The notes below the pieces were generated by a model that worked only from the letters and a program-made list of their open reading frames with translations, did not search any database and had not been told where the DNA came from. A stretch of 64,000 bases of DNA from Lachnospiraceae bacterium (GTDB taxonomy: Bacteria > Bacillota > Clostridia > Lachnospirales > Lachnospiraceae): the NCBI GenBank assembly GCA_029219245.1, contig JAQXTA010000008.1, positions 30,004-94,003 on the forward strand, in the 5' to 3' direction. This document shows positions 59,154 to 64,000 of the stretch, in pieces; the first letter of the stretch is position 1, and the number at the start of each line of letters is the position of its first letter. A program made the translations under genes and the position numbers.

Positions 59154-61451
59154 CTATTCGGTCATACCATTCATAATTTCCTGTTCTTCCGGCAATACAT
59201 CTTCTACTGTATCTGTCGCGTTTTCTCCGGCTAAATCATCGTAAATTGTGCCGAATACAATAGAACGTAAATGCTCCGTATAAACAACATTATCCTCTGA
59301 TGCAATAATATCTAATACATCCGCTTCAGACAATCCATACTGCTCTGATAAAATATTTAATATTTCCTGATAAACTTCCTTTATTTCATCGGAAACATTA
59401 TATTCATCTGCATCCGGAAGCAATTCATAATATAAGGATACGCCCTGTATCAAAGCATCTAATGCCTCCAACTCTTTATTGTCCATCTTCTGATAACTCT
59501 GATATGCTTCCAGCTTACGATTCATTCTCAATATAATGCGGCTCTTATGTAATATTATCTCATCTTCTTCACTCAATTTCTTACCGGACAATAAATCATA
59601 AACCTCTTCATAATTTCCCAAATCGTAAGCAACGTGTGCATCCCGCTTTTCCAAATAAGAAGGAATAACAGAAGATAATAATACAATGCATACTGCAATG
59701 GTTGCACAAAACAAAACAACTGCGATTATTTTCTTCCTGGAAACCTTTTTAGTCGGCTTTTCCTCTACAACTTCCTCATTTTCCTTTTTCTTCTTTTCTT
59801 TCTTAGGACGTTTCTTCTTTTTACCTTTTGCACTTTCTTCGGACTCTTCCTCGCTCATTTCATCATCCTGTGCATCTTGTCCTTTTTTGTTTTTCTTATC
59901 TTTCTTTCCTTTCTTTTCTTTTTTACCTTTCTTATCTTTTTTGCCTTTTTCTTTCTTTGCCTTATTATCTTCTGCATTTAGTTCATTCAAAATATCCTGA
60001 TTTTCATCCGACGTTTCTCCAAGAAGCAATTCGTCCAAAGAATCTGTTTTACTTGCATTCTTGTCCTCGTTCTCTTCTTCCTCCTCATCTGCTTCCATGA
60101 GAAAATCAATTATTTTCGCAAAAAAACCTTTTTTCTTTCCGGTTTCATCCGTTTTGGATGCAAGTCCCGGCACATCTGCCCCCACATCAAGGCCTTCCAT
60201 CATAGTGAGATCCAGTCCATCCATGTCCTGACTTCCACTAATTTCAGCATCACCATTATTTTCATCCGTTTCCGAATTTTCTTCCGGCTGTTCACCTTTT
60301 TTCTTTCTGCCGAATCTTCTTTCCTTCTTTGCTTTCCTTTCCTTTTTTTCTTTCTTTTTCTTTGCTTTCTTATCAGGAATTTCCTCTATATTTTCATTGT
60401 CTCCAGTAATTTCACCTTGTTCATTATTTTCAGCACCTTCATTGAAAAAATGAAATGCATCCTCACTTGCTTCACCTAATTCCTGATCTGAAGAATCAGA
60501 CAAACTCTTTAAAAGTTCGAGCATCTCTTCATCAACGTCTTCCTGTCCTGACTGCTCCAACAGGCCATTAATTTCTGCCATATCCTCATCAATATTACCG
60601 TCATCTATGGCAAAATCAGCCATATCACTTAAATCAATATCGCCTGCATCGCTATCATTATCACTTTCGCCAGTATTGTCTTCTTCGATTGCCATATCTG
60701 CCATACCAAGCAAATCTGCCAAATCACTGTCAAGTGTATCTATCTCTCCATTCTCGTCCGGAATTTCTTCATCCGTATCGCCTAGACCAGTATCTTCTGC
60801 CATGTCTGTCATATCTGACATGCCAAGCAAATCTGCTAAATCATCATCGATGGTTTCTCCCACAATTTCCCCGGATGTTTCTTCCATTGGCTCCTCAAAA
60901 CCAGCATCCAGACTTGGAGTTTCCTCCATGCTTTCAAATTCATCCAGACTGGGAGTTTCTTCCATACTCTCAAATTCATCCAGACTGGGAGTTTCTTCTA
61001 TACTCTCAAATTCATCCAGACTGGGAGTTTCTTCTATACTCTCAAATTCATCCAGACTGGGAGTTTCTTCTATACTCTCAAATTCATCCGGACTGGGAGT
61101 TTCTTCTATCGCATCTTCATTATCGGACAATGGCATATCTGCCATAGCAAATAAATCAGACAAATTATCCAATCCGCTATCTTCCGACATTGTACTATCT
61201 TCTTCCAACTCATCTACCGATGCATCACTATTCCCCATTGCTGCAAACATTGCCTCAATTTCTTCGGGGCTCATTGCCTTATTAGCATCCTGTGACTGTG
61301 GTTGTGGCTCTGCCACACTCTCCGGTTCTCCGCCAGACAGCAATTCAATTGCACTTTTTGGTTTATCCTTTTCATCAGCAGATGATTCCGGCGTTTCTCC
61401 ATTTATCATAGATTGTAACAGATTTTCTAAGTATTCTTCACTTGAACTCAT
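59154..61451 (-). CDS. Large acidic membrane-anchored scaffold-like protein with tandem repeats
   Basis: The 765-residue protein has four parts. (1) A very acidic N-terminal region (about 1-370). It includes tandem 12-residue repeats, five full copies of EETPSLDEFES(I/M) plus a partial one, and three copies of a motif like DLADLLGMSDM. (2) A Lys/Glu-rich charged region (about 370-565) with long KKEKKERKAKKE-type runs. (3) One membrane helix (about 570-597, KIIAVVLFCATIAVCIVLL). (4) A C-terminal domain of about 165 residues that looks helical and TPR-like (AYDLGNYEEVYDLLSG). The basic side next to the helix predicts a cytoplasmic N-terminus. No family is recognised. It precedes nothing on its own strand except hisH after 43 bases. 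Confidence 0.8.
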   Translation of the reverse strand: MSSSEEYLENLLQSMINGETPESSADEKDKPKSAIELLSGGEPESVAEPQPQSQDANKAMSPEEIEAMFAAMGNSDASVDELEEDSTMSEDSGLDNLSDLFAMADMPLSDNEDAIEETPSPDEFESIEETPSLDEFESIEETPSLDEFESIEETPSLDEFESMEETPSLDEFESMEETPSLDAGFEEPMEETSGEIVGETIDDDLADLLGMSDMTDMAEDTGLGDTDEEIPDENGEIDTLDSDLADLLGMADMAIEEDNTGESDNDSDAGDIDLSDMADFAIDDGNIDEDMAEINGLLEQSGQEDVDEEMLELLKSLSDSSDQELGEASEDAFHFFNEGAENNEQGEITGDNENIEEIPDKKAKKKKEKKERKAKKERRFGRKKKGEQPEENSETDENNGDAEISGSQDMDGLDLTMMEGLDVGADVPGLASKTDETGKKKGFFAKIIDFLMEADEEEEENEDKNASKTDSLDELLLGETSDENQDILNELNAEDNKAKKEKGKKDKKGKKEKKGKKDKKNKKGQDAQDDEMSEEESEESAKGKKKKRPKKEKKKKENEEVVEEKPTKKVSRKKIIAVVLFCATIAVCIVLLSSVIPSYLEKRDAHVAYDLGNYEEVYDLLSGKKLSEEDEIILHKSRIILRMNRKLEAYQSYQKMDNKELEALDALIQGVSLYYELLPDADEYNVSDEIKEVYQEILNILSEQYGLSEADVLDIIASEDNVVYTEHLRSIVFGTIYDDLAGENATDTVEDVLPEEQEIMNGMTE
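60906..61112 (-). repeat. 36-base tandem repeat inside the scaffold-like gene
   Basis: Five full copies and one partial copy of a 36-base unit (on the plus strand CATCCAGACTGGGAGTTTCT...) encode the 12-residue EETPSLDEFES(I/M) repeats. Copies are almost identical at base level, which implies recent expansion and possible copy-number change. Confidence 0.9.
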
Positions 61452-61499: not shown

Positions 61500-62297
61500 T
61501 CATTTAACAAATCCATTGGCTAAAAAATCGACAGGTTTTTCTTTGATGCTCGTTCCTCTTTCCCCAATCTTCTCCCCCAACTGATATAAAGAAGAATGTA
61601 TTCTATACAAATGAGATTTCTGATTATACAAAACAATTTTTTCAAATGGCCATCTGATTATAGAAGGCATATCTAATCCAACACCTAATTCTATAACACA
61701 TAACTTTTTATTTACGGTCCCTTGTAGCCATTTCGTATAAATTTGCCATTGTGTTAAATAACCTTCCTCTGCGTATTTATGCACGCCCAACTGATTAAAA
61801 CGTTTCTTTTCACCACATCTGCTACAAATCGGTTCCTCTAACTCACCTATAGTTATATCTTTATTATAATAGGACTTTACTTTCTCATATGTTTCATCAT
61901 CAACATCCATTATTTCACCATTGCAATTATAATCACATTGCATCCTCCGAAAACCGCCCACAGGTGTAACAATTCTTTCTTCTTTCAATCCATGTTGGTA
62001 TATACTGTCATCTATAGCCGTTGAAATGATAAAATAATTTTTTTCAGAAATTATCTCTTTTAAAGTTTCATATGCACGATTAAGCTGTATATCTGCTTGT
62101 TTATCAATCATCATTTTTTGCAAAAAAGGAATAACCCATAAATATTCCTCTCTTGCATCGATTTCCTTTTCAATTTCCTGATATCGTTTATCCTGCTGTA
62201 AAATATCCCAATCGAATTGAAACTCTTCCCCAATTCCTATCAAAATCAAATCTGATTCCTTACATTTTTCAACTATTTCAGACAATATCTGATTCAT
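61500..62297 (-). CDS. Degenerate sirtuin-like (SIR2-fold) protein
   Basis: The 265-residue protein can be laid on the SIR2 fold by eye: an N-terminal Rossmann start (DLILIGIGEEF), a NID-like segment (STAIDDSIYQHGL), GGFRRMQC leading to a zinc ribbon (CDYNC ... CSRC) and a late strand (VIELGVGLDMPSIIRWPFEKI) in place of GTSL. The catalytic His and the Asn of QNID are missing (TPVGGF and TAID), so classical NAD-dependent deacylation is unlikely. It may bind NAD, ADP-ribose or a partner instead. It lies between CheV and the scaffold-like gene with short gaps. Confidence 0.6.
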   Translation of the reverse strand: MNQILSEIVEKCKESDLILIGIGEEFQFDWDILQQDKRYQEIEKEIDAREEYLWVIPFLQKMMIDKQADIQLNRAYETLKEIISEKNYFIISTAIDDSIYQHGLKEERIVTPVGGFRRMQCDYNCNGEIMDVDDETYEKVKSYYNKDITIGELEEPICSRCGEKKRFNQLGVHKYAEEGYLTQWQIYTKWLQGTVNKKLCVIELGVGLDMPSIIRWPFEKIVLYNQKSHLYRIHSSLYQLGEKIGERGTSIKEKPVDFLANGFVK

Positions 62298-62390: not shown

Positions 62391-63287
62391 TTATTTCAAT
62401 ACTAATTCATCAACAACCTTTACTAAATTACCAATTTCTGGTTTAGAAAGCTGCGCATCAGCACCTAATGCTTCACCTTTTCTCTTCATCTCATCATTAA
62501 CGAGTGAAGAGAAAATAACAACCGGGATATTCTTTGTTTCATCATCCTCTTTAATTAGCTTCGTTAATCTGTGACCATCCATAATAGGCATTTCAATATC
62601 GGTAATAACACATTTCACATGTTGATCCAATGTACCTTCTCTTTTACATTCCTGAATAACATCATATGCCTGTTGTCCATTTTCTGTATGAATCAGGTTA
62701 GCATAACCGGCTTTATGTAAAGAATCAACAATCAATTTATTTAACAAAGGAGAATCTTCTGCTACCAAAATAGGAACGTCATTTCTTTCTCTTTCGCCAA
62801 GTGCATCGATCTCTGTCATTTTAAGACCGGTTTCCGGATTGATATCTGTCACAATCTTCTCAAAATCAAGAATGATAATCAATCTGTCCTCATATTTAAT
62901 AATACCGGTAGAAATTCCTTCTTCCGTTGCTGACACAGTAGCATCCGGTTTGATTATATCTTTCCATGATACTCTATGAATTCCAACAACAGAATCCACA
63001 TGGAATGCAATATTTAACTTATTGAAATTCGTAATAATAAATAAACCACCCGGCTCAGATACACCACGCTGTAAGCAATTTTTCAAATCAATTGCTGTAA
63101 TCATAGTATCACGTGGCATAAAAATACCTTCTATACTTGGATGAGCATTCGGAACAGGTGTAACTTCCTGATATGTAATTATTTCTCTAATCTTTGCTAC
63201 ATTAATACCATATGCATTTCCGTCTAACTTAAATTCAAGTATCTCTAACTCATTTGTTCCATTCTCTAGTAGAATCTTTGTATCCAT
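62391..63287 (-). CDS. cheV: Chemotaxis coupling protein CheV (CheW + receiver)
   Basis: The start is ATG 63287 (MDTKILLENGTNELEILEF) after GAGGTGG, giving 298 residues. The N-terminal CheW domain (about 10-150: EFKLDGNAYGINVAKIREII, FMPRDTMITAIDLKNCL, VVGIHRVSWKDI) is followed by a receiver domain (PILVAEDSPLLNKLIVDSL, phospho-Asp in VKCVITDIEMPIMDG, VVIFSSLVNDEMKRKG). It couples chemoreceptors to CheA and is adjusted by phosphorylation. No other chemotaxis or flagellar gene is in the window. Confidence 0.94.
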   Translation of the reverse strand: MDTKILLENGTNELEILEFKLDGNAYGINVAKIREIITYQEVTPVPNAHPSIEGIFMPRDTMITAIDLKNCLQRGVSEPGGLFIITNFNKLNIAFHVDSVVGIHRVSWKDIIKPDATVSATEEGISTGIIKYEDRLIIILDFEKIVTDINPETGLKMTEIDALGERERNDVPILVAEDSPLLNKLIVDSLHKAGYANLIHTENGQQAYDVIQECKREGTLDQHVKCVITDIEMPIMDGHRLTKLIKEDDETKNIPVVIFSSLVNDEMKRKGEALGADAQLSKPEIGNLVKVVDELVLK

Positions 63288-63588
63288 GTAATCCACCTCA
63301 CGTTGTATTTTTAGAAAACAGCCTTTCTTTACATTATAATTTGCATACCCCAAAGCATATTTTCTATTTCTAATTATAAACCAAAATAATTATATCATAA
63401 AGTGAAATAAAAAAAAACACTATTTACATTTTTTTGTAAATAGTGTTTTGACATGCCCTCAAAACCAAATACTAAAAATCTCCATCCTTCCTTGTTACCC
63501 TTCCGCCTTTTTTCATCTACTTCTTTCTTTTATTCTCCAGAAGAATCACTTGTGATTCTTTGCAGATAATTTACGAAGTAAATTTTCT
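63288..63588. other. Intergenic region between cheV and the 23S rRNA gene
   Basis: These 301 bases hold no gene. They contain the rRNA terminator, a perfect palindrome AAGAATCACTTGTGATTCTT at 63541-63560 and a smaller inverted repeat (AATTTAC/GTAAATT) near 63568-63584, both in the 23S 3' flank and plausible processing sites. A TATAAT-like box upstream of cheV has no good -35. No 5S sequence is present. Confidence 0.8.
63410..63455 (-). terminator. Terminator of the rRNA operon
   Basis: Minus-strand perfect 15-base stem AAAACACTATTTACA / TGTAAATAGTGTTTT followed by a run of T. It lies about 140 bases after the 3' end of 23S. Confidence 0.85.

Positions 63589-64000
<412 letters not shown>

Follow-up and report, generated by a model that had tools for sequence, protein, structure and literature searches.

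Lachnospiraceae code for a conserved, unnamed membrane protein that is linked to chemotaxis and encoded beside cheV. The link to chemotaxis is strong, and from short helices that resemble the CheY-binding peptide of FliM and FliY we infer the binding partner. We propose that the protein is a chemotaxis-associated, membrane-tethered multivalent docking scaffold, most likely for CheY-P or CheV, a reading that we judge to have about an even chance of being right; it is probably an unrecognised component of the navigation machinery of this family. Roseburia and Butyrivibrio, both Lachnospiraceae, are among the main motile gut commensals, and we know of few protein-level studies of Lachnospiraceae chemotaxis. 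The window, the whole stretch of DNA analysed, is 64,000 nucleotides long (contig JAQXTA010000008.1 of assembly GCA_029219245.1, positions 30,004 to 94,003), and its features are listed in Table 1.

A disordered acidic protein on a single membrane helix

In the full-length AlphaFold model, pLDDT falls below 50 at 488 of the 765 residues and the cytoplasmic part is mostly disordered, punctuated by short, isolated helices (residues 3-16, 62-72, 289-300, 308-316, 443-452, and 482-492). Charge segregation is marked in this protein and in its orthologues; the cytoplasmic part begins with an acidic stretch (32% D+E and a net charge of -0.26 per residue ahead of its final 120 residues) and continues into a Lys/Glu-rich block adjoining the membrane helix (32% K+R over the 120 residues that precede the helix). 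Because the K/R-rich flank of the membrane helix is the cytoplasmic side, an N-in/C-out topology is expected.

The C-terminal domain is predicted with confidence (mean pLDDT 90.8) to be all-helical, and carries an AxxAYxxGxYExAYxxL pattern; TPR matches in Pfam are weak and occur in only 2 of 42 members. HMM and structure searches with this domain, as proposed in a preliminary description of the DNA, identified no Pfam family, PDB sequence, or PDB fold: its profile retrieved only coiled-coil noise from PDB sequences, and Foldseek of the model against the PDB gave nothing at E<=0.001, the matches being to 14-3-3 and TPR-like helical bundles (best E 0.18). The full-length protein has no family match in Pfam or NCBIfam, and no FliM, CheC, or FliN (SpoA) domain was found in it with Pfam. 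The preliminary description had depicted an acidic, multivalent protein, disordered and attached to the membrane, that belongs to no known family, and our analysis supports these points.

The same description stressed two classes of repeated motif, and both are present as described. The 36-bp array has 5.7 copies with a 96% match, corresponding in the protein to six EETPS(L/P)D units of 12 residues each (starting at residues 116, 128, 140, 152, 164, and 176, the last truncated), and three L(A/S)DL(L/F)(A/G)M motifs lie near residues 97, 205, and 244. These motifs are lineage-specific, however, and so are not the conserved core: EETPSLDEFES and L(A/S)DL(L/F)xM are each present in one of the 83 orthologues examined, which is this protein itself. 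Absence of the motifs from orthologues had been named beforehand as counting against the proposal, and for these two literal sequences that is what we find. Orthologues from other genera have different acidic repeats in the same style, such as SLDDISLDDLS, MGIEGIADD, and EEGLVDVFADT; a 12-mer in at least three copies is found in 23 of 78 orthologues versus none of 78 shuffled sequences, and the acidic repeats of the orthologues are not due to chance. Judged from sequence, the conserved core consists of the C-terminal helical domain and of a disordered acidic tail that bears short helices, one with EDYLDxLL at the extreme N-terminus and others of the EIxxLL type.

Table 1. Features of the scaffold locus, with positions numbered within the window
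Feature	Position	Strand	Basis or remark
Scaffold gene; product a 765-aa single-pass membrane protein	59154..61451	-	ORF with ATG start; orthologues and synteny
Helical (TPR-like) domain, predicted extracytoplasmic, with the conserved tail DVLPEEQE	59157..59660	-	AlphaFold; basis of family profile A1
Membrane helix, single, near residue 575	59663..59735	-	Positive-inside rule gives N-in/C-out
Juxtamembrane block rich in Lys/Glu, containing the short conserved helices GFFAKIIDFLM and SDENQDILNELN	59736..60430	-	Composition, orthologues, AlphaFold
Conserved double helix AEINGLLEQSG...DEEMLELLKSL	60501..60578	-	EIxxLLxKSD in orthologues; predicted helices 289-300 and 308-316
DLADLLGM motif, copy 2	60693..60725	-	Lineage-specific
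DLADLLGM motif, copy 1	60810..60842	-	Lineage-specific
Acidic repeat EETPSLDEFES(I/M), about 6 copies of a 36-bp unit	60905..61109	-	Tandem array; lineage-specific, not in orthologues
LDNLSDLFAM motif	61143..61172	-	Lineage-specific
FliM/FliY-like motif MSPEEIEAMFAAM (MSPEEIEAMF segment), residues 60-72	61236..61274	-	Isolated predicted helix 62-72
N-terminal helix SSSEEYLENLLQSM, top-conserved cytoplasmic motif	61407..61448	-	In register with FliY SQDEINALLSGM and FliM SQNEIDNLLAAL
Uncharacterised gene X, between cheV and the scaffold gene in many, not all, genera	61500..62297	-	No Pfam match
cheV (CheW and receiver domains), upstream syntenic partner	62391..63353	-	Pfam CheW 7e-31, Response_reg 3.6e-17

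Short helices resembling the FliM/FliY docking peptide

The CheY-P site of FliM and FliY is an EIDALL peptide at the N-terminus (PMC9126983). The N-terminal peptide of the scaffold protein is MSSSEEYLENLLQSM, and its EDYLDxLL motif aligns with MLSQDEINALLSGM of FliY and VLSQNEIDNLLAAL of FliM, both encoded in the same genomes; scored as YL[DEN]xLL, it is present in 59 of 78 intact orthologues, with none expected from shuffles. Two further FliM-like motifs lie inside the protein, such that the three correspond to the AlphaFold helices 3-16, 62-72, and 289-300, and EINGLL of the conserved double helix resembles EINALL of FliY. Across the orthologues, internal [ED]IxxL[LFM] occurs 83 times, versus 6.8 in shuffled and 13 in reversed sequences. 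An (L/M)S(A/P)(D/E)(D/E)IAA(L/M)FA version is repeated in five genera, and tandem FliM-like copies number 13, 7, 6, and 3 in some genera; this protein has a single LS-type copy, and LS-type motifs are found in a minority of orthologues. Scanning 16 whole genomes for SxDDIAALFA gave 33 matches, all at the scaffold locus, and none in the reversed control.

We also scored N-termini with a FliM/FliY-peptide matrix, comparing those of the target proteins with 684 background ORFs and with composition-matched shuffles. Target N-termini score above the background ORFs (Mann-Whitney p 3e-30), and 31 of 78 lie above the 95th percentile of the shuffles and 8 of 78 above the 99th, with none reaching the scores of real FliM or FliY. 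The quoted background thresholds are conservative, because the top of the background includes unfiltered FliY-type ORFs and an L048 fragment that we take to be a piece of a target gene. The scaffold motifs are short and weak, and the N-terminal one has Tyr at the Glu position of FliM. The likeness to the FliM/FliN EIDALL peptides that had been pointed out earlier is nonetheless real for FliM and FliY as a statistical enrichment, weaker than in true FliM/FliY; it holds against the shuffled, reversed, and background controls and fits the linkage to chemotaxis and the flagellum.

Two observations on individual orthologues are added here. At L048 (genome G112, contig C22, 2240-3611) some of the FliM-like copies precede the called ORF, and the repeat-rich scaffold gene of G112 may therefore be frameshifted or misassembled. 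Fourteen divergent orthologues (L061, L065, L066, L070, L073, L125, L130, L132, L136, L147, L151, L154, L156, and L159) begin with a region that contains a zinc-ribbon-like CxxC...CxxC segment, in many cases directly before the YLDxLL helix.

The scaffold gene accompanies cheV in flagellated genomes

Searching 200 Lachnospiraceae genomes, about one per genus, with the C-terminal 188 residues identified relatives in 85. A 42-member profile (A1) set 84 clear members (E<1e-31) apart from one doubtful match; we regard the profile match in genome G028 (E 2e-6, 79 positions) as spurious. In a class-level sample clear matches were confined to Lachnospiraceae, with three weak ones beyond (E 2e-4 to 7e-4). 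FliM is present in 81 of the 84 scaffold-positive genomes and FlhA in two more, the last being a 76%-complete genome. Co-occurrence with FliM over the 200 genomes gives a Fisher p of about 5e-31, not corrected for phylogeny; genera are not independent, and we therefore give more weight to synteny.

The order cheV-(X)-scaffold gene-hisH-hisF-ung is conserved at about 40 loci from as many genera, and wherever the region beyond cheV can be seen it holds a kinase, a response regulator, and a lipoprotein. At most loci read in genomes that lack FliM or have the divergent type, the kinase or X directly precedes hisH-hisF, and cheV and the scaffold gene are absent. Since non-flagellated relatives thus keep kinase-(X)-hisH-hisF, we interpret cheV and the scaffold gene as a cassette that is lost with the flagellum from a locus that is itself stable, and gene X, which some of these relatives retain, as probably lying outside it. 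The scaffold protein is absent from all 19 genomes whose FliM is divergent (E 1e-27 to 1e-43). It is also missing from eight flagellated genomes of the common FliM type. Seven of these have no copy of this CheV either; the eighth, G014, has cheV at a contig edge (154-1068), so the scaffold gene may be off the contig end. G147 is the reverse exception, with a scaffold copy at a contig end. In the sampled family the protein is thus restricted to flagellated, cheV-bearing genomes, apart from the exceptions just named, although joint loss with cheV is not independent proof because one deletion can remove adjacent genes.

Several features of the neighbourhood are recorded for completeness. The product of gene X, conserved at the locus, has GIGEE and CxxCG motifs; a by-eye identification as 'sir2' has no support from Pfam. 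A short conserved lipoprotein with an EYAAGLLLKYD-type segment lies between the kinase and cheV (L043, L058, L069, and L074) and appears to be missing where the kinase directly precedes hisH in non-flagellated relatives. A search for a sigma-28 promoter gave no general pattern, and only two loci have a candidate box, some 175 bp ahead of cheV; in the window, an extended -10-like sequence, TGATATAAT, lies upstream of cheV, and what reads by eye as the end of a 23S rRNA gene (63600-64000, - strand) is directly upstream of cheV. The CheV receiver has Gln in GADAQLSKPEI, as do 32 of 32 orthologues checked, at a position that we take, by eye, to be that of the aromatic switch Tyr106 of CheY. This Gln may make for unusual signalling; a non-canonical switch position has been reported for some Vibrio CheV proteins (PMC8789113).

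Proposed function and alternatives

We favour a docking platform because this membrane-tethered chain of FliM-like helices is encoded next to cheV and is retained in swimming bacteria alone. The C-terminal helical domain would sit outside the membrane, anchored by one helix, and the disordered acidic tail would display in the cytoplasm several amphipathic helices similar in form to the N-terminal peptide with which FliM and FliY bind CheY. Most likely the helices dock a receiver-domain protein at the membrane, with CheY-P as the first candidate and the neighbouring CheV as the second, and so localise or buffer the motor-switch signal, with a presumed effect on swimming. Because FlhG is an interaction partner of the FliM N-terminus or of FliY (PMC12826062), it is a second candidate client. 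The preliminary description had also suggested a docking scaffold; the chemotaxis and flagellum linkage and the FliM/FliY-like helices support it in part, although the repeats it emphasised are not the conserved part. More specifically, and tentatively, the protein could be a new chemotaxis component, a membrane-bound multivalent CheY-P sponge or relay in which FliM-like peptides are multiplied on a disordered tether.

A somewhat unlikely alternative is a HubP/FimV-like positional landmark that places flagella and/or chemoreceptor arrays, with FlhG, FlhF, or array proteins as clients and no role in CheY-P level control. Its strength is the plan of the protein, which matches HubP/FimV in its single pass, long acidic cytoplasmic region, genus-variable repeats, and TPR-like domain (PMC12918733); HubP moreover positions chemotaxis arrays and affects CheV4 (PMC8789113), the FlhG interaction would fit, and one target-positive genome has an FlhG-like ORF (locus L076). 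The predicted orientation is reversed, however, with the TPR-like domain outside, and no LysM domain was seen; among flagellated genomes, the scaffold protein tracks cheV and not the flagellum alone, which points to chemotaxis over flagellar placement.

That the protein has a different envelope or signalling function and merely resides in the cheV operon, its acidic amphipathic motifs being by-products of composition, seems improbable: motif enrichment persists against composition-preserving shuffles and reversal, and the gene is lost with flagella and cheV whereas the kinase and hisHF stay, even though the locus also contains a sensor kinase, a response regulator, a lipoprotein, and metabolic genes and the acidic repeat sequences are not conserved. 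Very improbable is a charge-driven condensate between the acidic tail and the Lys-rich juxtamembrane block that recruits clients non-specifically, which charge segregation in the protein and its orthologues and long predicted disorder would allow, but which leaves the conserved short helices and the cheV linkage unexplained.

As a family-wide, cheV-locked protein absent from all family libraries searched, the docking scaffold would be a missing part of Lachnospiraceae chemotaxis. If its motifs bind CheY-P, the docking peptide of FliM would have been put to a second use, in multiple copies on a tether in the membrane, and Gram-positive bacteria would have evolved a HubP-like design independently; were the CheY-P sponge or relay true, Lachnospiraceae would have a tunable means of keeping the motor signal at the membrane.

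Comparison with known systems

Like HubP/FimV, the polar landmarks of gammaproteobacteria, the scaffold protein is single-pass, with an acidic disordered cytoplasmic region, variable repeats, a TPR-like domain, and a link to chemotaxis and flagella. The acidic repeats of HubP/FimV differ in number and composition among genera (PMC12918733), and HubP influences CheV4 placement in Vibrio cholerae (PMC8789113). Unlike them, the scaffold protein lacks LysM (no Pfam match over the full protein), has its cytoplasmic part at the N-terminus, and bears FliM-like helices of its own; the C-terminal FimV/TPR domain of HubP/FimV is cytoplasmic, whereas that of the scaffold is predicted to lie outside the membrane and matches no Pfam family. 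With the orientation reversed, LysM absent, and a sequence relation not found, we do not regard it as a member of HubP/FimV.

It resembles the FliM/FliY peptide (EIDALL) in its S-x-x-x-[ILV]-[DN]-x-L-L register and in a place at the extreme N-terminus ahead of a flexible linker, and differs in having no FliM, CheC, or FliN domains, in its Tyr at the Glu position, and in its multiple internal copies. The C-terminal CheY-binding helix of CheZ has a similar S-x-x-x-[VL]-D-x-L-L-x-S pattern; unlike CheZ, the scaffold has no four-helix domain and its motif is N-terminal. CheV, its neighbour, is a soluble CheW-receiver fusion, whereas the scaffold is a membrane protein with neither domain, and the two have in common an operon-like locus and their phyletic pattern.
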